Assembly (NCBI RefSeq): GCF_024498175.1
Contig: NZ_CP101823.1
Coordinates: 2,362,987-2,426,986 of the forward strand
DNA from: Haloplanus salinarum
Lineage (GTDB): Archaea > Halobacteriota > Halobacteria > Halobacteriales > Haloferacaceae
Direction: 5' to 3'
DNA: 64,000 nucleotides
This document shows, in pieces, positions 26,648 through 43,872 of the stretch. Every line of letters begins with the position of its first letter. Within the stretch, counting starts at the first letter, position 1. Below the pieces are notes generated by a model. That model was not told the origin of the DNA. It was given only the letters and a program-made list of their open reading frames with translations, and ran no database searches. The position numbers and the translations under genes were made by a program.

Positions 26648-26989
26648 TCAGGACTGCTTCCAGTCGGGCTCCGAGCGGGGCGGCGAGAGGACGCCGATAC
26701 CGACCGCGGGTTCGTCGCCCCGGTTTTCGGCGCCGTGGAGTTCGTCGCTGGTGAAGAGATACGAGTCGCCCGGGCGGAGCGTCACCTCCTCGTCCTCGGT
26801 GATCGCCGTGAGTGTCCCCCGAATCATGTAGCCGATCTGTTCGTTGTCGTGTCGATGCACGGGAAGCGTCGCGCCCGGTTCGACCCGCCAGTGTTTCATC
26901 GACGCGCGCTCCCCCGACGCGAGGTCCGCGAGGTACACGCCGTCGGCGACCTCGTCGCCGTCGGCCGTCTCGTCGCTGATGCGCCTCAT
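26648..26989 (-). CDS. Single-domain cupin protein
   Basis: A 113-residue beta-barrel protein. HRHDNEQIGYMIRGTLTAI carries cupin motif 1 (two His and a Glu), and RPGDSYLFTSDELHGAENRGDEPAVGIGV carries motif 2 with the final His, so a metal site is likely complete. The function is unknown; small cupins may sense or isomerise small molecules. It is divergent from the NMT1-type gene at 27073 and shares the 83-bp intergenic region that holds the palindromic operator-like element, so it may belong to the same regulon. Confidence 0.85.
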   Translation of the reverse strand: MRRISDETADGDEVADGVYLADLASGERASMKHWRVEPGATLPVHRHDNEQIGYMIRGTLTAITEDEEVTLRPGDSYLFTSDELHGAENRGDEPAVGIGVLSPPRSEPDWKQS

Positions 26990-27022: not shown

Positions 27023-27047
27023 ATAAAGGTTCCTGAGGAACTTTTAT
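27023..27047 (+). promoter_or_regulatory. Palindromic operator-like element over the TATA box, site 1
   Basis: A 25-bp near-perfect palindrome: ATAAAGGTTCCT, central G, AGGAACTTTTAT, with one mismatched pair. The TATA-like CTTTTATAT overlaps its right arm and lies about 27 bases before the ATG at 27073, so a bound protein would block or adjust TBP/TFB. Closely related elements stand before 29116 and before 43822 (minus strand), all in front of NMT1-type gene units. Confidence 0.8.
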
Positions 27048-27072: not shown

Positions 27073-27969
27073 ATGCCAGGCGACGACACGATCAGAGTGT
27101 TCCACCTCCCGTTCTCGTTCATGCTGCCACAGCGCGTCGCGGCCGACCGCGGCTACTTCGCCGAGGAAGGACTGGACGTCGAGTTGATCGAACGGGACCG
27201 GACCTGCGTGACGAACAAGTATATCCCGGCCGAGGAGACGCTGACCGGCGACAACGACGTCGACCTCTACCCCATCTGTAAGTGGGAGAGCCTCAAGCGG
27301 ACCTGGGAGTTCGACGACGGACGAATCGTCGCCAAAGGGACCTTCGCCGACCAGCCCTACGCCGTGTTCGTGCGCCCCGACTCCGACATCGAAGCGCCCG
27401 CCGACCTGGCGAACACGCCCGTCGGCGTCAATCGCCGGACGGGGCAGGAGTACACCGCGATCCGGGCGCTCGAGGAACACATGGACGAGGACGAGGTGGT
27501 GATCGAGGGCCACGGGATGCCGACCGACCGCCTGCGCGCGCTCCGCGACGGCGACGTCGAGGCCGTCACCCTGCTCGATCCCCACATTACCCTCGCCGAA
27601 CACCTCGGCTTCGAGAAGGTCCTGGAGTTCGAGAACCACATGGGCGTCGTCGGCGCAGACGGCCTGGAAGGCGAGACCCTCGACGCCTTCATGGCCGCCT
27701 ACCGGCGGGCGGTCGAGACCATCAACGCCGACCCGTCGGCCTACCGCGACCGGTACCTCGACATGCTCTGGAAGGACAGCGAGGTGGCCCCGGACCTCTT
27801 CGAGGACGTGGATACCGAGGCCGTCCGCGAGTCGATCGAGGTGCCGGAGTACGAGGTGCCGGAACTCGCCGACCGCGAGGATCTGGACTACCACCTGTCG
27901 TGGATGAAGCAACGGCAGTTGATCGACGACGACGCCGACATCGACGCCATCGTCTCCCCGGTACGGTGA
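27073..27969 (+). CDS. NMT1/THI5-like substrate-binding-fold protein without signal peptide
   Basis: A 298-residue protein with the two-lobe periplasmic-binding fold of the NMT1/THI5 family (VAADRGYFAEEGLDVELIE near residue 20; GVNRRTGQEYTAIRALEEH; MPTDRLRALRDGDVEAVTLLDPHITLAEHLG). Bacterial relatives bind thiamin pyrimidine precursors, taurine or nitrate; fungal THI5 makes the pyrimidine itself. It starts MPGDDTIRVFHLP with no signal peptide or lipobox, so it should be cytoplasmic. The fungal CCCFC iron motif is absent. The stop overlaps the next start (GTGA), coupling it to a second family member. The cellular role is open. Confidence 0.8.
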   Translation: MPGDDTIRVFHLPFSFMLPQRVAADRGYFAEEGLDVELIERDRTCVTNKYIPAEETLTGDNDVDLYPICKWESLKRTWEFDDGRIVAKGTFADQPYAVFVRPDSDIEAPADLANTPVGVNRRTGQEYTAIRALEEHMDEDEVVIEGHGMPTDRLRALRDGDVEAVTLLDPHITLAEHLGFEKVLEFENHMGVVGADGLEGETLDAFMAAYRRAVETINADPSAYRDRYLDMLWKDSEVAPDLFEDVDTEAVRESIEVPEYEVPELADREDLDYHLSWMKQRQLIDDDADIDAIVSPVR

Positions 27970-28958
27970 GCCGCCGTCACATCGACGTCCAGCGGGCGGC
28001 GTTCGACGAACACGGCGACGACCCCGGGGACCTGCCGACGATGCGTGCCCGGTTCGAACACAACGGCAGCCCTCGGTATCTCCTCTATACGATCAAGCGG
28101 TTCGGCCTCGACCGTGACTACGGCTTCCACCTCGACGTCGAACTCGTCTCGGACGACCTCGAAAGCGGGATGGAGACGATCCGGGAGCGGTTGGACGGGG
28201 GCGGGACCGACCTGGTCGACACCGACTTCATCTCGGTGGCACGGGAGCGGGCGGCGGGCGCGAACGTCGTCGCCGTCCACCCCTACGGCCGGACCGTGGG
28301 CGGCCTGGTCGCCCCCGAGGACACCGACCTCGGGGGGATCGAGGACCTGTCGGGCCACCGGATCGGCGTCACCCGGCGGCTGGACAAGAACTGGATCCTG
28401 ACGCGGGCGGCCTGCCGCGAGTTCCACGGCTTCGACCCCGACGAGACGACCACGCTCGTCGAGGCCGGATCGCGGGACGGGCTGACGCGGATGATCCGCG
28501 AGGGCGAGGTCGACGCCGGGTTCCAGTTCTGGCCGCTCGTGCCCGAACTCACCCGCACGGGACCGTACACCGAGGTCCAGTCCGTGTCGGCCCTAGTCCA
28601 GCGGCTCTCCGGAACCGAGCGGAAACTCCCGGTCGCGACCTTCGTCACCGGCGAGTCGTACCTGGACGAACGGCGGGAGACGGTACGGGCGTTCGCCGCG
28701 GCCTCCCGCGACGCCGTCGACCGCCTCGTCGCGGACGACGGCCTCTGGGTCGAGATCGGCGACCGACTGATGGCCGACGACGATCCCGCGGTCGTCCGGG
28801 CGGTCCGCGACGGTTGGCGGGGGATGGTCGTCCGCGACTGGGACGAAGGGACCGTCGAGGGGATGTGCCGGCTGTTCGATCACCTGGAGGCCGTCGCGGG
28901 ATCCGAGGCGCTCGGCGTCGAGGCGATCCCCGCGGGTACCTTCGAGCCCGACCCCTGA
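27966..28958 (+). CDS. NMT1-like substrate-binding-fold protein without signal peptide, paralog 1
   Basis: A 330-residue protein beginning MSRRHIDVQRAAFDEH. DLPTMRARFEHNGSPRYLLYTIKRFGLDRDYGFHLDVELV opens the binding-fold domain. FISVARERAAGANVVAVHPYGRTVGGLVAPEDTD and LSGHRIGVTRRLDKNWILTRAACREF are the lobe-crossing segments. There is no signal peptide. It is highly similar along its full length to the 330-residue protein at 29223-30215, a clear tandem duplicate. The GTG start at 27966 overlaps the preceding stop and matches that paralog's start; the longer open frame upstream is a shadow. It ends in the first base of hairpin copy B. Confidence 0.8.
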   Translation: MSRRHIDVQRAAFDEHGDDPGDLPTMRARFEHNGSPRYLLYTIKRFGLDRDYGFHLDVELVSDDLESGMETIRERLDGGGTDLVDTDFISVARERAAGANVVAVHPYGRTVGGLVAPEDTDLGGIEDLSGHRIGVTRRLDKNWILTRAACREFHGFDPDETTTLVEAGSRDGLTRMIREGEVDAGFQFWPLVPELTRTGPYTEVQSVSALVQRLSGTERKLPVATFVTGESYLDERRETVRAFAAASRDAVDRLVADDGLWVEIGDRLMADDDPAVVRAVRDGWRGMVVRDWDEGTVEGMCRLFDHLEAVAGSEALGVEAIPAGTFEPDP

Positions 28959-29037
28959 GACGGATTATCGTAACTGTGTAGGTGGGTCGCCAGGACGGTC
29001 CGGCGACCCACCGGTACGGACGTACAATAGACGGTGT
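28958..29037. repeat. Dispersed hairpin element, copy B
   Basis: The element starts at the last base of the upstream stop codon. The inner inverted repeat is perfect: GGTGGGTCGCC (28981-28991) and GGCGACCCACC (29002-29012), with spacer AGGACGGTCC. Relative to the other copies one stem base is changed on both sides (T to G and A to C), a compensatory pair. The outer arms (AGACGGATTATCGTAA ... GTACAATAGACGGTGT) are imperfect. Confidence 0.85.
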
Positions 29038-29066
29038 GGGTCCGCCCCGGGCCGTCGGTGGAACTC

Positions 29067-29091
29067 ATAAACCTTTCCGAGGAAATTTTAT
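29067..29091 (+). promoter_or_regulatory. Palindromic operator-like element over the TATA box, site 2
   Basis: A 25-bp element with the same ends as site 1 (ATAAA at the left, TTTTAT at the right) and a core TTTCC-GA-GGAAA. The downstream bases up to the start codon (TACGGTCGTAC, GCGGGTATGCC) also match site 1's promoter, showing that the whole promoter was duplicated. It precedes the 36-codon ORF at 29116 and the NMT1 pair at 29223. Confidence 0.75.
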
Positions 29092-29115
29092 CAGGATACG
29101 GTCGTACTTGCGGGT

Positions 29116-29226
29116 ATGCCGATCCACCAGACGCGCGTGCCACGCCGCCGTGAACCGACACGTCCCGGCGTCGGACGTCCCGACGACGAGTCGCCACGGA
29201 CCGCACCGCCCGCGGGTCGACGATGA
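29116..29226 (+). CDS. 36-codon ORF in the position of the first NMT1 gene of the duplicated unit
   Basis: The ATG sits exactly where the NMT1 gene starts in the first unit (GCGGGTATGCC in both), and the stop overlaps the next start by four bases (ATGA), mirroring the first unit's coupling. The 36 residues (MPIHQTRVPRRREPTRPG...) are Arg/Pro-rich and unlike any NMT1 protein. It is either a leader peptide that carries ribosomes to the 29223 gene, or what remains after loss of the first gene. Only the position supports it. Confidence 0.4.
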   Translation: MPIHQTRVPRRREPTRPGVGRPDDESPRTAPPAGRR

Positions 29227-30215
29227 CCCGGAGCCACGTCGACACACAGCAGGCCGCCCTCGACGAGTACCACGACGATCCGGGGGATCTACCGACGATG
29301 CGCGCCCGGTTCGAACACAACGGCAGTCCGCGCTACCTGCTGTATACGATCAAGCGGTTCGGCTTCGACCGCGACCACGGCTTCCACCTCGACGTCGAAC
29401 TCGTCTCCGACGCCTTGGAGGACGGCATCGAGACGGTCGAGGCCCAGCTACAGGAGGGGCACGCCGACCTCATCGACATCGACTACATCTCGATCGCCCG
29501 GGAGCGGGCGGCGGGCGCCGACATCGTCGCCTTCCACCCCTACGGCCGGACCGTGGGGGGGCTGGTCGCCCCCGAGGACTCCGACATCGAGGGGCTGACG
29601 GACCTGTCGGGCCACCGGATCGGCGTCGTTCGTCGCCTCGACAAGAACTGGATCCTGACGCGGGCGGCCTGCCGCGAGTTCCACGACTTCGACCCGGACG
29701 AGACGGCTACGCCCGTCGAGGCCGGCTCGAAGGTCGAACTGACGCGGATGATCCGCGAGGGCGAGGTCGACGCCGGGTTCCAGTTCTGGCAGATCGTCCC
29801 GGAGATCACCGAAACGGGACCGTTCGAGAACGTCCTGCCCGTCTCGGAGCTGGTCCAGCGCCTCTCGGAGACGGAGAACAAACTTCCCATCGCCGCCTTC
29901 CTCACGAGCGGTGACTACCTCGACGAGCAACGCGGGACCGTGCGGGCGTTCGCGGACGCCTACCGGGACGCGGTCGACAAACTCGTCGAGAACGACGAGA
30001 TCTGGGAGGAGATCAGCACGAAGCTGATGACCTACGACGACCCCGACGTGATGCGTGCGGTGCGTGACGGCTGGCGCGACATGGTCGTCCGCGACTGGGA
30101 CGAGGAGAGCGTCGAGGGGATGTATCGGCTGTTCGACCACCTCAAGGCCGTCGCGGGTGCGGACGCGCTCGGCGTCGAGGAGATCCCCGAAGGAACCTTC
30201 GAGACCGATCCATGA
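29223..30215 (+). CDS. NMT1-like substrate-binding-fold protein without signal peptide, paralog 2
   Basis: A 330-residue tandem duplicate of the protein at 27966-28958, with the same start (MTRSHVDTQQAALDEYHDD), the shared block DLPTMRARFEHNGSPRYLLYTIKRFG and the shared tail GVEEIPEGTFETDP. No signal peptide or lipobox. Many differences are conservative, so both copies look maintained and intact. The stop overlaps the next gene by four bases (ATGA), coupling it to a third NMT1-type protein. No permease or ATPase gene is in this operon, which argues against a simple import role. Ligand unknown. Confidence 0.8.
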   Translation: MTRSHVDTQQAALDEYHDDPGDLPTMRARFEHNGSPRYLLYTIKRFGFDRDHGFHLDVELVSDALEDGIETVEAQLQEGHADLIDIDYISIARERAAGADIVAFHPYGRTVGGLVAPEDSDIEGLTDLSGHRIGVVRRLDKNWILTRAACREFHDFDPDETATPVEAGSKVELTRMIREGEVDAGFQFWQIVPEITETGPFENVLPVSELVQRLSETENKLPIAAFLTSGDYLDEQRGTVRAFADAYRDAVDKLVENDEIWEEISTKLMTYDDPDVMRAVRDGWRDMVVRDWDEESVEGMYRLFDHLKAVAGADALGVEEIPEGTFETDP

Positions 30216-31180
30216 CCGAGACAGTCACCTTCCAGCTGAACTGGGAACCGAACGGCTTTCAGGCACCGTACTTCCTCGCGCGCCGTGAGGGCTTCTTCGC
30301 GGACGAGGGGCTCGACGTGGAGTTCGTCGAGGGGCACGGCTCGCCGTTCGCCGCCGAACAGACCGCCAAGGGGCGGAGCGATCTGGGCCTCGCCGGCGGG
30401 AGCGCCGTCCTCTCGGTGCGAAGCCAGGGGCTCGATCCGCTAGCTGTCGCCGCCGTGAGCCAGAAGACTCCCGCGACGATATACAGCCTCCGGGACACCT
30501 TCGGCGAACCCTTCACCGAACCCGAACAGCTCCGGGGACGGACGGTCGCGCCCTCGGCGACGAAAACCCGCATCCTGACGCTCCAGTTGCTCGAGGACCG
30601 GGGGATCCGGGACGACGTCGGGGTCCACGACGTCCAGAAACACACCCACCACCGCGTCGAACACCAGCTGCTCGACGGCGACGTCGACGCCGCGGTGGGC
30701 GTGGTCACCAACGGCAGGGAACTCGAACGCGAGTACGACCGGACGGCCGACGAACTCCTCATCGGCGACTACCTCGACGTCTACGGCATGACGGTCGTCG
30801 CCAACCCCGAGTTCGCCGAGTCGAACCCCGAGACGGTGCGGTCGTTCCTCCGGGCGACCGCGCGGGGCTGGGAGGCGGCGACGAACGACCCCGAACGGGC
30901 CGTCGAGGCCCTGATCGATCGGAACGCACAGCTAGAGCACAACCGCGAGGTCGAGCACATGAAGTTCCTGGCCTCCGCCGAGGATCTGCAGTTCACCGAG
31001 TTCGTCCGCGAGGCGGGCTGGGGACACTTCGACGAACGGCGCTGGGAGAACCTGGCCGAGATGCTGGCAGAGACCGACCTGCTCGAATCGTCGGTCGACC
31101 CCGCGGCGGCGTGGACGAACGAGTTCGTCGACGACGCGGACCCGGTGATCGCCGACTACGCCGAGCGGATCGGTCGGTGA
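30212..31180 (+). CDS. NMT1/THI5-like substrate-binding-fold protein without signal peptide
   Basis: A 322-residue protein. It begins directly with the binding fold: FQLNWEPNGFQAPYFLARREGFFADEGLDVEFVEG. Then come DLGLAGGSAVLSVRSQGLD, TVAPSATKTRILTLQLLEDRG and AVGVVTNGRELEREYDRTADEL, all standard NMT1 segments. The NW-x-PNG start motif is shared with the importer proteins at 39156 and 42728, but here there is no export signal. It is coupled to paralog 2 by an ATGA overlap. It may act as a cytoplasmic binding or enzymatic partner; this is inference. Confidence 0.8.
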   Translation: MTETVTFQLNWEPNGFQAPYFLARREGFFADEGLDVEFVEGHGSPFAAEQTAKGRSDLGLAGGSAVLSVRSQGLDPLAVAAVSQKTPATIYSLRDTFGEPFTEPEQLRGRTVAPSATKTRILTLQLLEDRGIRDDVGVHDVQKHTHHRVEHQLLDGDVDAAVGVVTNGRELEREYDRTADELLIGDYLDVYGMTVVANPEFAESNPETVRSFLRATARGWEAATNDPERAVEALIDRNAQLEHNREVEHMKFLASAEDLQFTEFVREAGWGHFDERRWENLAEMLAETDLLESSVDPAAAWTNEFVDDADPVIADYAERIGR

Positions 31181-35657: not shown

Positions 35658-37385
35658 CTACTCGCTGAGGCCGAAGACGGCGACGGTGGAGCCACGGCGA
35701 CCGCCGTGGAGCCAGCCGGAGCCGCCGACCTGGACCGCGACGTACTGCTTGCCCTCGCCGGGGTCGTACCAGCTGGACAGCGACGAGCAGATCGGCGCGC
35801 CGAGTTGGAACTGCCAGAGCCGGTCGCCGTTCTCGCCGTCGTAGGCGATGATGTTGCCGTTCTGGGTGCCGGTGAACGTCAGGCCGGTCGCGGTCGTGAT
35901 GGAGCCACCCCAGAGGTAGTCGCTCGTGGTGTCCGAGGAGATCCAGTCACGCCAGACGCGCTCGCCGGTCGCCGGATCGACGGCGACGACGGCGCTCAGG
36001 TTGCCGTTCCAGTCGTCCGGCTCGTCGACGTCGGGCCAGTCGTTGAGGCCGCCGCCCCAGTAGGTCTGCCCCGCCTCGTACTGGGCCTCTTTCCAGAAGA
36101 TCTCGTGGGGAGAGTTGTTCTGGTTCATGTACATCAGCCCAGTCTCGGGGTTGTACGACGGCGGCTGCCAGTCGTTGCCACCGTGTGCGCCCGGCACGAA
36201 GGCGACCCGCCGGTCCTCGTCGGCGTGCGGGACCATCTTCCACATGTTGATGTGCTGGGTCGTCTCCTGGGACCGCTCGAGGAGCTGCCCGTTCTCGGCG
36301 TCCATGGTGTAGACCCAGGCGGTCTTGCCGGGGCTGAGGACGACGTCGCGCGTCTCGCCGTCGCCCATCTCCATGTCGTTGACACGGATCTTGGTCGCCG
36401 AGGAGTCGTAGTCCCAGACGTCGTGGGGGGACTCGCCGTAGTGCCACTGGACGGAGCCGTCGGTGGCGTCCAGGGTCAGGGTGCCGATGGTGTAGCGGTT
36501 CGGACCGGGACGGACCGTACCGTCGAAGTCCGGACCGGGGTTGCCCACCGGCGCGTGGAGCATCCCGGTGTCGGGATCGAGCGTCGGCGTCATCCAGACG
36601 GTGCCGGCGCCGTGTTCGTGGGAGTCGCCGGCCCACTCCTCGGCGGGCGTCGTATTCGTGCGCCACATCTCGTCGCCGCTCTCGGGGTCGAGGGCCGCGA
36701 CGAAGCCGCTGACGCCGTACTCGCCGCCGGCCGAGCCGGTGATGACCTGACCGTCGTAGACGATGGGCGCCCACGTCGCGGAGTACCCGATCTCGTGGTC
36801 GCCGGTCGAGGTGTACCACGCCTCTTCGCCGGTGTAGCGGTCGAGCGCCACGATCCCGGAGTCGAGGGTGGTCATGAACACCTTGTCGCCGTGGACGGCG
36901 AACCCGCGGTTGTTCGCGTCACAGCAGAGAAGCAGCCCCTGCGGGTTGGCGTACGTGTAACTCCACAGCGTCTCGCCGGTCCGGGCGTTGATCGCCTTCG
37001 CGTGGTTCGGCCCGTTGGTCTGGTACATGACCGGCGGATCGCCGGGCACGACGATCGGGACACCCTCCATGCTGGAGGCGACGCCGCTCTGGACCAGATA
37101 CTCGAGTTCCAGATCCTCGACGTTGTCCGGCGTGATCACGTCCGCCGACGTGTGGCGCTGCTGCTGATAGCCGCCGCCGTACATCAGCCAGGATTCGGGG
37201 TCCTCCTTCGCGGAGGCCGTCAGGTCTTCCTGGGTGACGTCGCGCTGGGGGATCTGGTCGATGTCGAACTGCTGCGTGATCGACTCGTCGGGGAGGTTGG
37301 TCAGCGTATAGCCGTCCTCGACCTCCACCATCTCGATGTTCTGTGCCGCCTGTACCGCCTTGTCGTGTTCGTGAATGCTAGCCAT
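35658..37385 (-). CDS. PQQ-dependent (quinoprotein) alcohol dehydrogenase-like protein
   Basis: A 575-residue eight-bladed propeller of the methanol/ethanol dehydrogenase type. Conserved PQQ-site features are the vicinal Cys154-Cys155 (LLLCCDANNRG), Glu222 (GGEYGVSGFVAALDPESG), Trp264, Asn282 (VGNPGPDFDG) and catalytic Asp325 in ESPHDVWDYD. Asp327, two residues later, is the extra acidic ligand known from lanthanide-dependent XoxF-type enzymes. No export signal is visible at its N-terminus, yet PQQ enzymes act outside the membrane. The upstream gene, three bases away, encodes a Tat signal. PQQ synthesis genes are not in the window. Confidence 0.85.
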   Translation of the reverse strand: MASIHEHDKAVQAAQNIEMVEVEDGYTLTNLPDESITQQFDIDQIPQRDVTQEDLTASAKEDPESWLMYGGGYQQQRHTSADVITPDNVEDLELEYLVQSGVASSMEGVPIVVPGDPPVMYQTNGPNHAKAINARTGETLWSYTYANPQGLLLCCDANNRGFAVHGDKVFMTTLDSGIVALDRYTGEEAWYTSTGDHEIGYSATWAPIVYDGQVITGSAGGEYGVSGFVAALDPESGDEMWRTNTTPAEEWAGDSHEHGAGTVWMTPTLDPDTGMLHAPVGNPGPDFDGTVRPGPNRYTIGTLTLDATDGSVQWHYGESPHDVWDYDSSATKIRVNDMEMGDGETRDVVLSPGKTAWVYTMDAENGQLLERSQETTQHINMWKMVPHADEDRRVAFVPGAHGGNDWQPPSYNPETGLMYMNQNNSPHEIFWKEAQYEAGQTYWGGGLNDWPDVDEPDDWNGNLSAVVAVDPATGERVWRDWISSDTTSDYLWGGSITTATGLTFTGTQNGNIIAYDGENGDRLWQFQLGAPICSSLSSWYDPGEGKQYVAVQVGGSGWLHGGRRGSTVAVFGLSE

Positions 37386-37388
37386 GCG

Positions 37389-38309
37389 TTACGCACCTCC
37401 CGTGCGTGGGGCGCGCATTTCGTCCGTGATGCGCATCACGTCGTTGGTCAGGTCCTCCTGGCCGACGATCATCATGGCCGCGCCCGCCGAGAGCGCGGCG
37501 GTGAGCTGTGCGTCGCCGAGTTCCTGACTGCCCGCGAGGTCCTCGGCGGCGTTGGCCAGCAGATGCAGTCCGGCGTACATCTGCTTGAGGTCTCCGTAGT
37601 TGTTGTCGAGGATGGTGTCGGTCAGGAGTACCTCGTTCTGCCAGAGGTACGTATCCAGGTAATCCGTCCACAACAGGACGCCGGCAGCCGCTCGCTGGTG
37701 GAGCGGGGCGACGTTCTCGGGGTCGAACCCTTCGACGCCGGCGGGGATGTTCTTCGTGGGCACCCACATCGCCAGGCGTTCCTTGTTGTTGACGACGTTG
37801 ACCATCGTCGAGGTCAGTTCGGACTCGGTGTAGCCGAGTTCGAGCAGTGCGGAGGCCAGGACGGGCGTGTCGATGAACTCCCGAGCGGTCGCCCCGATGT
37901 GCTCGGGGGTGAACTCGGGGAGGTGCTCCTCGACGCTCCCGAAGAAGCCGACTTCCACGAGATGCTCGTGGATGGCCCACCCGGGCTCGGCGAGCTCCTG
38001 ATAGGCCGTACTGTCCTCGGCCGGGACGCCCATGGCCCGCAGCTCGTCCAGCTGGGCGATCTGTTCTTCCAGGGCCGCGAGTTCGCTACCGAGCAGACCC
38101 GCGTCGAGTTCGCCCGTCAGGTCGTCGCTGATGGCCTCCCCCATAGCGGCGAGTTCCCCCGCCGTCTCCCCTTCTACTTCTCCCCTGAGGTCGCTCAGGG
38201 TGAACTCACTACCTGCTGCCACTGCGCCGGTCAACCCGACGACCTTGAGGAACTGCCGTCGATCCTCCTGGTCGATCTGGGGCATTCCGTCTGTTACATA
38301 TTGCGACAT
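37389..38309 (-). CDS. Tat-signal protein, probable partner of the quinoprotein dehydrogenase
   Basis: A 306-residue protein of unknown family. Residues about 15-38 (EDRRQFLKVVGLTGAVAAGSEF) form a classic twin-arginine signal, RRQFLK. The remainder is mostly helical (LAALEEQIAQLDELRAMG, LASALLELGYTESELTSTMVNVVNN, LHQRAAAGVLLWTDYLDTYLWQN). No cofactor motif is evident. It is three bases upstream of the quinoprotein gene. Because that enzyme lacks a signal, joint folding and export through Tat (hitchhiking) is the likely purpose, with a role as small subunit. Inferred from order and signals only. Confidence 0.75.
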   Translation of the reverse strand: MSQYVTDGMPQIDQEDRRQFLKVVGLTGAVAAGSEFTLSDLRGEVEGETAGELAAMGEAISDDLTGELDAGLLGSELAALEEQIAQLDELRAMGVPAEDSTAYQELAEPGWAIHEHLVEVGFFGSVEEHLPEFTPEHIGATAREFIDTPVLASALLELGYTESELTSTMVNVVNNKERLAMWVPTKNIPAGVEGFDPENVAPLHQRAAAGVLLWTDYLDTYLWQNEVLLTDTILDNNYGDLKQMYAGLHLLANAAEDLAGSQELGDAQLTAALSAGAAMMIVGQEDLTNDVMRITDEMRAPRTGGA

Positions 38310-39010: not shown

Positions 39011-39155
39011 CGAGTCGAACTTCGGTTTTGATCTATTAAACCTGATGAAGTCCCGCCAGGGACTCCCACGCACGCGGAGGAACGTGTACGATCCGTGACT
39101 CGATCGCCGAGCGTTCGCCTGCAGTTTATATATGGACCGGACCGAATGGGGGGAC

Positions 39156-40409
39156 GTGCGAGTTCGAGAGTTTCCGGTCCTCGGCGACGAGGACGAACGA
39201 GCGGTCGAGGCGTTCGCCGCGGGGCTCGACCGCGAGGCGGCGCGCGTCCTCGCCTACCTGGTCGGCCGCGAGGAGTCCGACCGCTTCTCCGGCGAGGCGG
39301 CGTCCCGACTGGCCGTCCGCGTGGGCGTCGACCTGGGCCGTGACCGCGTCTCGGACGTGCTCGCGACCCTCACCGACCACGGCCTGATCACCGAGACGAC
39401 CGTCCGGAGCGAGGCGCCGGGGCGACCGCCCAAGGGGTGGCGGGCCGACGGCGGCTTCGATCGGACGGTCGCCCGCGTGCGCGCCTGCCACTCCGAGGCG
39501 CTGCTCGACCGGGCCGCGACGGTCGCCGCGACCCTCGGCGACGATGTCGACGTCGACGCCGACGCCCGGACCGACGATGGGAGCCCCGTCGAGGTTGGCC
39601 TGAACTGGGATCCGAACGGGCTTCACGCCCCACTGTTCGCGGGGACGTACGAGGCAGACGTGAGCTTCGACGGACGTCGCGGCTCCGCCGCCGCGCTGTC
39701 GGCCGTCGCCGACGGCGACGTGGACGTGGGGCTCACCGGTGCGGCCACCTTCCTGCGCGCTCACGCGGACGGGAGCGACGTGGTCCCGCTGGCACTCTAC
39801 TACCAGCGGGCGATGGTCGTCCTCTACACCACTCGCGAGACGTTCGGTGCCCCGCTCCGGAGCGTCGAGGACGTCCGCGGTCGGCGGGTCGCCATGCCCG
39901 CCGGCTCCGAGACCGGTGCGCTCGGGCGCCTCTTCCTGTCGCAGGCCGGCGTCGTCGACGACGTGACCGTCGTCCGCGCCGAGGGCGAAGAGCGCGAGGC
40001 GCTCCTCGACGGCGACGCCGACGTCGCGACCGGCGTGTTCACCGACCCGCTGGAGTTGGCGGCCGACGGCCACGACGTCGACTCGGTGCTCGTCGCCGAG
40101 CACTTCCCGGTCCCGGGCCCCGCCTTCGTGGTTCGTCGGGAGACGCTCCGGGACCGCCCCGGGGCGCTTCGGGCGTTCCTCGAGGGCTCGATGGACGGGT
40201 GGAGCACCGCACGGACCGATCCCGCGGCGGCGGTCGAGGCCGTCGGCGACCGGAGCGACGAACCGGCCGCGGCCGAGCGGCGCAAACTCACGCAGGCGCT
40301 CGATCGCTTCGCAGGCAGCGACGCCGTCGAAAAGAACGGCTGGGGGTGGCACTCGGGGGAGACGTGGCAGCGCCTCCGGATCGCCCTCGATCAGGCCGAC
40401 GCACTATGA
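39156..40409 (+). CDS. Winged-helix / NMT1-like fusion, candidate transcription regulator
   Basis: A 417-residue fusion. Residues about 17-107 form a winged helix-turn-helix domain (REAARVLAYLVGREE, LGRDRVSDVLATLTDHGLITETTV, wing GRPPKGW). Residues about 145-417 form an NMT1/THI5-like binding domain starting VGLNWDPNGLHAPLF. No signal peptide exists, so it is cytoplasmic and should sense the ligand that the importer encoded downstream carries. The GTG at 39156 is preferred: TTTATATA (39125-39132) is the TATA box and overlaps the in-frame ATG at 39132. Its stop overlaps the ATPase gene's ATG. Confidence 0.8.
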   Translation: MRVREFPVLGDEDERAVEAFAAGLDREAARVLAYLVGREESDRFSGEAASRLAVRVGVDLGRDRVSDVLATLTDHGLITETTVRSEAPGRPPKGWRADGGFDRTVARVRACHSEALLDRAATVAATLGDDVDVDADARTDDGSPVEVGLNWDPNGLHAPLFAGTYEADVSFDGRRGSAAALSAVADGDVDVGLTGAATFLRAHADGSDVVPLALYYQRAMVVLYTTRETFGAPLRSVEDVRGRRVAMPAGSETGALGRLFLSQAGVVDDVTVVRAEGEEREALLDGDADVATGVFTDPLELAADGHDVDSVLVAEHFPVPGPAFVVRRETLRDRPGALRAFLEGSMDGWSTARTDPAAAVEAVGDRSDEPAAAERRKLTQALDRFAGSDAVEKNGWGWHSGETWQRLRIALDQADAL

Positions 40410-41176
40410 TCCACGCCGAGAACCTGTCGGTCAGTTACGGTGACCTGCGCGCGCTCGCCGACGTCGACCTCGACGTCGCCGACGGCGAGTTCGTCACCGT
40501 CGTCGGCCCCTCCGGCTGTGGCAAGACCACGCTGTTGCGGACCATCGGCGGGCTGGAGGAGCCGACGACCGGCGAGGTCACCGTCGACGGCGACCCGCCG
40601 GCGGTCGCACAGTCGGCGGCCCGCCTCGGGTTCGTCTTTCAGGAACACACGCTCCTCCCCTGGAAGACGGCCATCGAGAACGTCACCTTCCTCCGGCGGA
40701 TGGCGGGGAAGGATGCCGACTCGGCGGGGGCGCGGGACCTCCTCGCGACGACCGGCCTCGACGGCTTCGAGGACGCCCGTCCGTCCGAACTCTCGGGCGG
40801 CATGAAACAGCGGGTCGCCATCGCCCGCGCCATCCACCTCGGCGCCGACGTGTTGCTCATGGACGAGCCGTTCGGCGAACTCGACGAAATCACCCGCGAC
40901 GAGATGAGCGTCGAGATCCTCCGCCTCTGGCGCGAGAACCGCAAGACCGTCGTGTTCGTCACCCACAGCGTTCCCGAAGCGGTGTTCCTCGGCGACCGCT
41001 GCCTCGTGGTCGCGGCCGACACCGAGGGCGATCCGACCGCCGACGGGGCGCCCGGGCGTGTGGTCGCCGAGTTCGACGTCGACCTCCCGCGCCCCCGCGA
41101 CGAGTCGGTCTTCGGATCGGAGGCCTTCGGGGCGCAGGTCGCCCGGGTCCGCGGGGCGCTCCACGGCGACACATGA
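40406..41176 (+). CDS. ABC transporter ATPase (NMT1/nitrate-sulfonate-taurine type)
   Basis: A 256-residue ATPase. Walker A GPSGCGKTT, Q-loop FQEHTLLPWKT, signature LSGGMKQRVAIARA, Walker B VLLMDEPFGELD and the switch His (VFVTHSVPEAVFLGDR) are all present. The Q-loop/LLPW pattern and the D-loop spacing are typical of the nitrate/sulfonate/taurine and thiamin-precursor families. It energises the permeases at 41173 and 41925. It overlaps both neighbours by four bases (ATGA), so regulator, ATPase and permease are one translational unit. Confidence 0.9.
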   Translation: MIHAENLSVSYGDLRALADVDLDVADGEFVTVVGPSGCGKTTLLRTIGGLEEPTTGEVTVDGDPPAVAQSAARLGFVFQEHTLLPWKTAIENVTFLRRMAGKDADSAGARDLLATTGLDGFEDARPSELSGGMKQRVAIARAIHLGADVLLMDEPFGELDEITRDEMSVEILRLWRENRKTVVFVTHSVPEAVFLGDRCLVVAADTEGDPTADGAPGRVVAEFDVDLPRPRDESVFGSEAFGAQVARVRGALHGDT

Positions 41177-41928
41177 GCGTCGCCGACCGCGTGCCGGCCC
41201 CCGACGCGACGTTGCCGGTCGCGGGGTTGGTCGCCGCCGTCGCCTGCTGGTGGGCGATCACCGTCGCCTTCGCCGTCCCGGCCTTCCTGTTGCCGTCGCC
41301 GACCGCCGTCCTCGCCCGCCTGGTCGGCAATCCCGGCTTGTATCTGACCCACGCCGTCGAGACGCTCCGGAAGATCCTCGTCGGCGGCGCCGCCGGCGTC
41401 CTCGCCGGCTTCACGCTCGCCGTCGTGGTCTCGGCGGTCCCCCTGCTCAGACGGGCGCTCTACCCCTACCTCGTCGCCGCCCGCGTCCTCCCGAAGATCG
41501 CCGTCGCCCCCATTTTCCTCATCTACTTCGGGGTCGGCTTCGAAACGGCCGTCCTCTTCGTCGCCCTCGTCGTCTTCTTCCCCGTCGTGGTCGGGACCGC
41601 CGCCGGCCTGTCGCGGACGCCCGAGGCACACCTCGACTTGCTCCGCTCCGTGGACGCCGACCCCCTCCGGACCTTCCTTTCGGTCCGTCTCCCACACGCC
41701 CTCCCGGACGTGTTCGCGGGGCTGAAACAGTCGGTGACGCTCTCGGTCGTCGGCGCCGTCGTCGCCGAGTGGATCCTCTCGAACGACGGACTGGGCGCGC
41801 TGATCCTGGCCGCCTCCGAGAACGTGCAGGCGGACGTGATGCTCGCGGCGCTCGCGGTCCTCCTGCCGATCGGGCTGGGGCTCTACGGCGGCGTGACGCT
41901 CTGTCAGCGCGCGGTGACCTGGAACTAG
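41173..41928 (+). CDS. ABC transporter permease (BPD-type, ThiX-like)
   Basis: A 251-residue membrane protein with about six helices. The EAA-type cytoplasmic loop is seen in DLLRSVDADPLRTFLSVRLPHALPDVFAGLKQSVTLSVVGAVVAEWI, where it docks on the ATPase. The N-terminal VAAVACWWAITVAFAVPAFLLPSPTAVLARL is standard for this class. The stop overlaps the convergent permease gene's 3' end by four bases. Two different permeases plus one ATPase suggest a heterodimeric channel. Confidence 0.87.
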   Translation: MSVADRVPAPDATLPVAGLVAAVACWWAITVAFAVPAFLLPSPTAVLARLVGNPGLYLTHAVETLRKILVGGAAGVLAGFTLAVVVSAVPLLRRALYPYLVAARVLPKIAVAPIFLIYFGVGFETAVLFVALVVFFPVVVGTAAGLSRTPEAHLDLLRSVDADPLRTFLSVRLPHALPDVFAGLKQSVTLSVVGAVVAEWILSNDGLGALILAASENVQADVMLAALAVLLPIGLGLYGGVTLCQRAVTWN

Positions 41929-42728
41929 CCCCAGTCCAGCCGCCGTTCGACCGCCGCGGGGACGAGATAGAAGACGAGACCGAGGAGCGTGAGCGTCCCG
42001 AGGGCGGCGAAGGTGGTGCTGGTCTGCAGGAACTCCGCGGTGTGAAAGAGTCGGTAGCCAAGCCCGGACTGCAGGGTGAGAAACTCCGCGACGACGGTCC
42101 CGACGACCGACAGCGCCGCCGCGAGTTTCACGCCCGCGAAGACGCTCGGGGCGGCCGCCGGGATCCGGACCCGAAGGAAGGTCCGGACCGGCGGCGCCCG
42201 GACCGATCGGGCGAGGTCGGTGTACTCCCGGGGAACCGACCGAAGGCCGTCGACCGACGCGATGGCGACCGGAAACACCGTCATCGTCGTGACGAGCGTC
42301 GCCCGCGAGAGGACGCCGTCGCCGATCCAGAGGAAGAGGAGGGGCGCGATGGCGACGAGCGGGGCGATCCGCAGCGCGATCAGGTAGGGGTGGAGGACCG
42401 CCGACGCGGCCCGCGACCCGACCATCGCGAAGGCGAGGGTGAGGCCGACGACGACCCCGCCGGCCAGTCCGAGGGCCGCGGTCAGCGCCGTCACCCCCGC
42501 CGCCGCGAGCAGGGTCCCGCGGGCGACGAGAAACGCCGTCGCGACGTCCGTCGGTCCGGGGAGGACGACGGTCGGCACACCCGTCGCCGTCACGAACCAC
42601 TGCCAGCAGGCGATGACGACGACGAACACCGCGGTCGGCGGCCAGACGTGACCGAGGACGGTCCGGACGGCGCCGCCGCTCGCCGTGGGGGCGTCGACCG
42701 ACGGGAGACGCCGGTCGGAGGTCGCCAT
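41925..42728 (-). CDS. ABC transporter permease (BPD-type, second subunit)
   Basis: A 267-residue membrane protein with about six helices. The coupling loop is SVRAPPVRTFLRVRIPAAAPSVFAGVKLAAALSVVGTVVAEFL, strongly similar to the plus-strand permease. The N-terminal VWPPTAVFVVVIACWQWFVTATGVPTVVLPGPTDV is also typical. It shares the same ATG base region with the upstream SBP gene (overlap at 42728), so both are expressed from the minus strand. Together with the plus-strand ATPase and permease this completes the importer. Homology between the two permeases suggests an old duplication. Confidence 0.87.
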   Translation of the reverse strand: MATSDRRLPSVDAPTASGGAVRTVLGHVWPPTAVFVVVIACWQWFVTATGVPTVVLPGPTDVATAFLVARGTLLAAAGVTALTAALGLAGGVVVGLTLAFAMVGSRAASAVLHPYLIALRIAPLVAIAPLLFLWIGDGVLSRATLVTTMTVFPVAIASVDGLRSVPREYTDLARSVRAPPVRTFLRVRIPAAAPSVFAGVKLAAALSVVGTVVAEFLTLQSGLGYRLFHTAEFLQTSTTFAALGTLTLLGLVFYLVPAAVERRLDWG

Positions 42729-43822
42729 CAGACTTGGTCCGCGTACGAGCCGACGAACTCGTCGTCGGTGTCGAGGTAGTCGTTGGTCCAGACGGCGTTC
42801 GGGTCGACCTCACCACCGAGGGCGTCGGCGTCCGCCAGGGCGTCGTGGACGACGCGCCAGGGTTCGGCCTCGCTCCAGCCCCAGCCGTGCTCCCTGACGG
42901 CGTCGCCGAGCATGAAGTCCCGAGCCATGGTCTCCCACTTGCGTCGCTGCTGCTCGCGGGACTCCGCGAGGACCCCGTTGGCCTCGACGAGCAGGTCGGT
43001 CGCCTCGGCCGGCCGCCGCTGGGCCCACGCGGCGCCGCGGGCGGTCGCCCGCAGGAAGGCCCGGACCGCCTCGCCGTTCGCGTCCGCCCACTCCCGGTTC
43101 ACCGCGACGACGTGCCCGTAGGAGGGGATGGTGTCGCCGACGGGGAGGCTATCGACCGTATACCCCTGGGCCTCGGCGCTGATGGCGTCGCCGAAGACGC
43201 CGCCTGCGGCGTCGATTTCGCCGGCGAGGAGCTGCTGGACGGTGTCGTATCCGGTGTCGACCATCTCGACGTCCTCGCGGACGCCCGCCTCCTCCAGGAG
43301 CAGCGACGTGAGCATCCGCACCATCCCGGGGCCGGTGCCGACCGTCTTGCCGGCGAGCCCCTCGACGTCGCTCAGCTCCCCGCCGAAGGTCTCGCGGGTG
43401 GAGAACACCACCGCCGGGCTCTTCTGCATCACGACCCCGACCGACAGCGGCGAGAGGTCGCGGCTGTTGACGTTCAACACCTGGTCGCCGCTGGTGACCG
43501 CGAAGTCGACGTTGCCGAGGCCGACCTGCTTCGCCGAGAAGGTCGACCCCTCGCCCGTCTCGATGGCCGAGAGCGTCAGCCCCTCCTCCTCGTAGAAGCC
43601 CCGTGCCTTCGCGGTGAAGTAGGGGACGTGCAGGCCGCTCGGCTTCCAGTTGAGCAGCAGCGACGATTCACCCGGAATCGGCGTTCCCGTGGCGGTTCCG
43701 GTCGGTGTCGCCGTTCCGTCGTCGGCGCCGCCGCCGGTCCCGCCGAGACAGCCCGCGAGTCCCGTCGCTCCCGTCGCCCCCGCCGCGACGAGAAACGACC
43801 GCCTCGTCGGAGTCCGTTGCAT
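42728..43822 (-). CDS. NMT1/THI5-family substrate-binding lipoprotein
   Basis: A 364-residue protein. The N-terminus TRRSFLVAAGATGATGLAGCLGG is a Tat signal with a lipobox, so it is exported and lipid-anchored. The binding fold begins LLNWKPSGLHVPYFTAKARGFYEEEGL and continues through FAVTSGDQVLNVNSRDLSPLSVG, GPGMVRMLTSLLLEEAGV and AAGGVFGDAISAEAQGY. It is the only one of six NMT1-type proteins here with an export signal, so it is the true importer receptor. The palindromic operator-like element at 43848 covers its TATA box. Confidence 0.88.
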   Translation of the reverse strand: MQRTPTRRSFLVAAGATGATGLAGCLGGTGGGADDGTATPTGTATGTPIPGESSLLLNWKPSGLHVPYFTAKARGFYEEEGLTLSAIETGEGSTFSAKQVGLGNVDFAVTSGDQVLNVNSRDLSPLSVGVVMQKSPAVVFSTRETFGGELSDVEGLAGKTVGTGPGMVRMLTSLLLEEAGVREDVEMVDTGYDTVQQLLAGEIDAAGGVFGDAISAEAQGYTVDSLPVGDTIPSYGHVVAVNREWADANGEAVRAFLRATARGAAWAQRRPAEATDLLVEANGVLAESREQQRRKWETMARDFMLGDAVREHGWGWSEAEPWRVVHDALADADALGGEVDPNAVWTNDYLDTDDEFVGSYADQV

Positions 43823-43847: not shown

Positions 43848-43872
43848 ATAAAAATTCCGGAGGAATGTTTAT
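43848..43872 (-). promoter_or_regulatory. Palindromic operator-like element over the TATA box, site 3
   Basis: On the minus strand the 25 bases read ATAAACATTCCT, C, CGGAATTTTTAT, matching its own reverse complement at ten of twelve arm positions. The right arm is the TATA box (about 27 bases before the ATG at 43822). It also overlaps the stop codon of the amphi-Trp gene. The layout is the same as at 27023 and 29067. Confidence 0.78.

Follow-up and report, generated by a model that had tools for sequence, protein, structure and literature searches.

The 64,000-nucleotide stretch of the Haloplanus salinarum genome analysed here (contig NZ_CP101823.1, positions 2,362,987 to 2,426,986; hereafter the window) encodes four proteins of the NMT1/THI5 family, named A, B, B' and C, that are predicted to reside inside the cell. 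Two of these, B and B', are by sequence search the genome-wide reciprocal best matches of PqqT, the periplasmic pyrroloquinoline quinone (PQQ) binding protein of Methylorubrum extorquens, and a PQQ alcohol dehydrogenase is encoded nearby. With a probability of roughly 0.55, A, B/B' and C would form a cytoplasmic module that binds PQQ, or lanthanide-bound PQQ, and delivers it to this dehydrogenase. The original prediction, made from the sequence of the window, had placed the four proteins inside the cell and excluded a role as import receptors, which agrees with the results here, but it identified neither the relationship to PqqT nor the PQQ dehydrogenase setting.

All four genes lie on the forward strand, A at 27073..27969, B at 27966..28958 (with a GTG start), B' at 29223..30215 and C at 30212..31180, and their products exceed the curated cut-off of PF09084 (NMT1/THI5) with E-values of 7e-11, 6e-10, 2e-9 and 7e-34, respectively. 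The Pfam search returned no recognised DNA-binding or signalling domain for A, B or C. The stop of A overlaps the start of B by four bases (GTGA, 27966-27969), as does that of B' with C (ATGA, 30212-30215), so that both the four reading frames and their paired overlaps are as originally predicted. The description as two coupled operons is accurate for the window, but the arrangement is that of one conserved A-B-C operon in which B has been duplicated, not of four independent genes. In a sample of 292 Halobacteria genomes, A and B were found in the same 40, adjoining each other in every case, and C was found in those 40 and additionally as one degraded copy; it adjoins B at almost every locus but lies elsewhere in two of the 40 (G191 and G241). 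A-B-C is an invariant three-gene module, and the window holds a version of it with B duplicated. Other genera possess a single A-B-C operon with a divergent cupin gene, and a phylum-wide search for B added no genome to the Halobacteria carriers that had already been identified.

Neither a signal peptide nor a lipobox is present in A, B, B' or C. Orthologues were checked for the same features (39 of A, 41 of B and 37 of C; ∼117 from at least 13 haloarchaeal genera), beginning as far as 60 codons upstream and reading on to residue 45. No twin-arginine translocation (Tat) motif was found in this region, lipobox-like strings amounted to two stray ones (one in an A and one in a B), and the hydrophobicity maxima of the first 45 residues were low. 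Conserved upstream starts that would add a signal peptide, a point raised with the original prediction, were sought among the orthologues and none was found, and missed start codons were rejected on this ground as the explanation for the lack of signals. This contrasts with the relative at 42728..43822 (reverse strand; PF09084 E 9e-34), the Tat-exported lipoprotein receptor of an ATP-binding cassette (ABC) importer, for which a Tat-like motif is seen in 10/12 and a lipobox in 12/12 sequences when its 11 orthologues are included. The absence of a Tat or Sec signal and of a lipobox that was originally noted for the four proteins, and the presence of a signal in the 42728 relative, hold across orthologues as well. 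A, B, B' and C are consequently predicted to be intracellular and not ordinary import receptors. The least probable of the alternatives considered is that they are import receptors after all, which leave the cell by a pathway yet to be recognised and dock with nearby permeases. For this the fold can be cited, as can an ABC importer nearby with a common operator-like site, and bacterial relatives of B that have a signal peptide and come with a permease and an ATPase of their own. Haloarchaea, however, export ABC receptors of this kind through Tat, and the ∼117 orthologues are without signal while the receptor of the same cluster keeps its Tat motif and lipobox in nearly all cases.

The relationship of B and B' to PqqT is evident through sequence similarity and predicted structure. 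A phmmer search of B' against the PDB gave one strong match, PqqT (9b1u/9b1v/9ooz; E 1.5e-25), with the next at 0.33, and the reverse search of the genome with the PqqT fragment gave B' (4.6e-26) and B (5.5e-25), followed by a match at 1e-3. 9B1U and 9B1V are structures of PqqT with PQQ, according to their PDB titles and to a review (PMC12828617). Foldseek with the AlphaFold model of B' (predicted local distance difference test score, pLDDT, 85.8) placed the PqqT-PQQ structures 9b1v, 9ooz and 9b1u as the top three, with template modelling (TM) scores of 0.85–0.87 by target length and E-values of ∼1e-22, the next match after these being at 2e-13. The lysine of the LDKNW/LDKSW motif (Lys141) is invariant in 31 aligned sequences ranging from Sinorhizobium to Haloplanus (in two bacterial precursors the equivalent lysine is residue 138 or 144), and from a numbering offset of 27 it is probably PqqT K142, mutation of which to Asp alters La/Ca affinity (PMC12828617). 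F188-W189 align with Y161-W162 of PqqT, with Phe188 in the place of Tyr. Bacterial relatives of B (∼30% identity) are found in clusters with PQQ methanol/ethanol dehydrogenases and MoxJ-like/PQQ-ABC genes in Sinorhizobium and Sagittula, where they have N-terminal signal-like stretches and their own permease and ATPase. For PqqT a dissociation constant of 50 nM for PQQ is reported (PMC12828617). The most likely ligand of B and B' is PQQ, to which a lanthanide or calcium ion may be bound.

C matches THI5 (4e-18) and ThiY (1e-14) and is 40% identical to the receptor at 42728. It shares with the hydroxymethylpyrimidine phosphate synthases THI5/THI13 both sequence relatedness and a cytoplasmic NMT1 fold, and a role for C as the key protein in thiamin-pyrimidine chemistry or salvage of the THI5 or ThiY type could additionally draw on the genome of the window, in which ThiC was not found. 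Such a role is nevertheless very improbable. The CCCFC motif of THI5 is absent from C, as the original prediction had stated, and THI5 K62 and H66, the catalytic pair, align to Ala61 and Ala65. ThiC, present in 178/292 Halobacteria genomes, occurs in 27/40 module genomes and 151/252 others (p = 0.39), which is at background, and the module is instead strongly coupled to the PQQ dehydrogenase. A THI5-like thiamin enzyme was rejected since the catalytic Lys/His and CCCFC are missing and the module is not enriched where ThiC is missing; identity as sulfonate/taurine receptors was also rejected, the NCBIfam matches being far under their cut-offs. From the enzymatic (THI5-like), storage or sensing roles first proposed, binding, storage or sensing still fits, whereas the thiamin enzyme does not.

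The PQQ alcohol dehydrogenase (35658..37385, reverse strand) belongs to the methanol/ethanol family, matching PF01011 (E 8e-55) and TIGR03075 (E 3e-116, below the 480-bit cut-off of that model). A CC pair and a WDYD motif of the lanthanide type (D-x-D) are present in 25/25 orthologues, D-x-D being taken as an indicator of lanthanide use (PMC11996626). No signal peptide was found in the same 25/25, and in-frame room for one upstream is often lacking, as the gene follows directly on the 37389-type gene; the protein is possibly a cytoplasmic quinoprotein. A dehydrogenase of this family was identified in 39/40 module genomes compared with 12/252 others (Fisher, 1e-36), in 12/13 compared with 6/64 at the genus level (p 6e-9), and in 33/35 genomes with a receptor-like homologue compared with 18/257 without, though these counts include related, non-independent genomes. 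Chance co-location of the module genes was rejected, given this co-occurrence and the presence of A and B in the same 40 genomes. PqqC was not detected in any of 22 genomes searched, a search in which S. meliloti pSymB as the positive control gave a match, and because of this PQQ is probably scavenged and not made by the canonical pathway. A literature search, incomplete in its coverage, returned nothing on A/B/C-type proteins or a haloarchaeal PQQ system.

The gene directly upstream of the dehydrogenase (37389..38309, reverse strand) encodes a conserved partner of unknown family. Its N-terminus is clearly Tat-like only in Haloplanus, and for this reason the simple idea that the dehydrogenase is carried through Tat by this partner was rejected as a general explanation. 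In Halomarina a CDC48-type AAA ATPase adjoins the partner (L040 13322-15496 and orthologues), something that might play a MoxR-like role. Genes for an aldehyde ferredoxin oxidoreductase, a xanthine-dehydrogenase-family protein or a formate dehydrogenase recur beside the module (L040 5940-7631, L066 ∼13800, L043 4265-6604; 31909-34035 in the window), which suggests oxidation of an alcohol to the aldehyde and then to the acid.

The module genes and the ABC receptor likely belong to one regulon, as judged from shared promoter sites. A 25-bp palindromic operator-like site, ATAAAGGTTCCTGAGGAACTTTTAT, is located in the promoter of A (27023..27047), a second copy in the promoter of B' (29067..29091), where it is conserved in Haloplanus, and a third in the promoter of the Tat-lipoprotein receptor (43848..43872). 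At up to 3 mismatches the palindrome ATAAANNTTYCYNMGGAANTTTTAT, a pattern derived from the three sites themselves, has only these three sites in the 3.45-Mb genome; with the A site alone as the query, the other two are the only close matches in the window. Related palindromes are present upstream of A in 38/39 loci and upstream of the receptor in 6/12, and are absent upstream of three other gene sets. Besides the receptor, the importer consists of an ATPase (40406..41176, forward strand) and two permeases (41173..41928, forward, and 41925..42728, reverse), and its genes are 9–13 kb from A-B/B'-C in other transcription units. The original observation that permease and ATPase genes are lacking is thus correct for both operons, but did not take in this NMT1-type importer, whose receptor gene has the same operator.

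A further relative is encoded at 39132..40409 on the forward strand, where a regulator-like N-terminal domain (weak match to the MreA regulator, residues 23-117) is fused to a signal-less NMT1 domain (PF09084 E 2e-23). In many genera this fusion has been kept close to the dehydrogenase, and we infer that it may be the regulator of the three operator-like sites. The presence in the same cluster of a signal-less NMT1 domain joined to a regulator-like domain, together with one operator-like site common to A-B, B'-C and the receptor, could suggest that A, B and C are themselves a cytoplasmic sensor set, perceiving an imported ligand (PQQ or another metabolite) and tuning the regulon by protein contacts with no delivery of cofactor. 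This is unlikely, as A, B and C are without the domains expected for DNA binding or signalling, three co-conserved proteins exceed what a sensor needs, and B is strongly related to PqqT.

The predicted structure of A has the PBP2 fold (pLDDT 88.8), and comparison of this model with the PDB revealed no close relative. Cys69 of A is invariant, and the C-x-W motif containing it is retained even in distant bacterial homologues. This, the cytoplasmic location and the occurrence of PBP2 enzymes among the weaker fold matches are in line with the proteins being PBP2-fold enzymes (such as DszB, MqnA/MqnD or 4,5-dihydroxyphthalate decarboxylase) that convert a product of the alcohol pathway, with A as the best candidate. 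No conserved catalytic set was recognised, however, and for B the fold search ranks a binding protein far ahead of every enzyme, which makes an enzymatic role quite improbable. Stand-alone signal-less relatives of A (∼30% identity) are encoded in other haloarchaea (L107 5992-6906; G011, G030, G038 and others) and a few bacteria, one of them adjoining a CstA-family gene.

In the mechanism proposed for the binding and delivery module, PQQ would be brought into the cell, with the ABC importer at 40406-43822, whose receptor gene has the same operator-like site, as a plausible route. Once there, PQQ would be held by B together with its partners and passed on to the dehydrogenase, which, because it too is without a signal peptide, should gain its cofactor in the cytoplasm. 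The 39132 fusion may perceive the ligand through its NMT1 domain and govern the three operator sites. Import, holding by B/B' with A/C, and loading is the simplest account of the location, ancestry, co-occurrence and co-regulation of these genes; within it, PQQ binding, the direction of delivery, the ligand of the importer, the identity of the regulator and what A and C contribute are inferred. The full scheme, in which a probably lanthanide-type alcohol dehydrogenase is loaded in the cytoplasm with PQQ scavenged from other microbes, by way of dedicated ABC import, sensing by the NMT1-domain regulator and a three-protein signal-less carrier set that includes a PqqT relative, is more doubtful and can be put forward only tentatively.

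Several observations weigh against a PQQ delivery module. B is only ∼30% identical to PqqT, so the ligand could have changed. A and C have no significant likeness to PqqT; C and the 42728 receptor are closer to ThiY, THI5 and a thiamin-binding protein, and these two may bind something other than PQQ. The dehydrogenase is missing from one module genome (G037), and 12 genomes have the dehydrogenase without the module. The relatedness of the genomes counted and the origin of the operator pattern, both given above, also belong here. In Haloplanus the Tat-like N-terminus of the partner protein and secreted cupredoxins encoded nearby indicate that the dehydrogenase of this genus may be exported as a passenger, and the absence of PqqC leaves room for another route to PQQ.

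The duplication in Haloplanus is visible as a 300-nt repeat at 79% identity and a 41-nt promoter repeat at 80%, yielding P-A-B and P'-B'-C, with B and B' being 74% identical. Between P' and B', a mini-ORF (open reading frame) of 36 codons (29116..29226, forward strand) overlaps the start of B' in an ATGA coupling. Besides the window, all 8 other Haloplanus loci read contain it, with lengths of 31–39 codons, the frame being kept despite the length changes (distance mod 3 = 2 everywhere), and its N-terminus, MPxDE, is like that of A; this reading frame is probably a vestige of the duplicated A. The divergent cupin gene (26648..26989, reverse strand), has its promoter region in common with A, and Halomarina, Natrinema and Halococcus have an annotated cupin in the corresponding position. 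A link to F420 through the neighbouring cofC was rejected, as among the loci read cofC adjoins the module only in a Haloplanus locus.

The known kind closest to B and B' is that of PqqT-type binding proteins, to which they are tied by the reciprocal best match, the predicted fold, the PQQ-dehydrogenase genomic setting and, in the alignment, the LDKNW lysine and the Tyr/Phe-Trp pair. They differ from PqqT in being archaeal, duplicated in Haloplanus, without signal peptide, and encoded with two other signal-less NMT1 proteins in operons without permease or ATPase. Compared with the SsuA/ThiY/NMT1-type ABC receptors (PF09084), the Pfam family and fold of A, B and C are the same, but the export signal, lipobox and transporter genes within the operon are lacking. 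Bacterial xox/PQQ dehydrogenase clusters (XoxJ/MoxJ, Ped/PQQ-ABC) likewise place binding-fold proteins and ABC transporters beside a PQQ dehydrogenase; there the binding proteins have signal peptides and the dehydrogenase is periplasmic, whereas here both are signal-less. The PQQ carriers described, PqqU in the outer membrane and PqqT in the periplasm, both act outside the bacterial cytoplasm, and to our knowledge the characterised PQQ alcohol dehydrogenases gain PQQ outside the cytoplasm as well. Because a set that includes a close structural relative of PqqT accompanies a PQQ-dependent alcohol dehydrogenase, the findings suggest an unrecognised way of handling PQQ within archaeal cells, and the larger novelty, plausible though unproven, would lie in the whole PQQ system being cytoplasmic. 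A cytoplasmic PqqT relative together with an archaeal PQQ dehydrogenase and no detectable PqqC would, if true, imply scavenging and trafficking of PQQ by archaea, and makes one ask at which site the dehydrogenase, and the lanthanide if one is used, is loaded. For archaea this would be a new cell biology of PQQ and perhaps of lanthanides as well, and it would give a testable function to proteins whose present annotation, in dozens of haloarchaeal genomes, is that of orphan ABC receptors.

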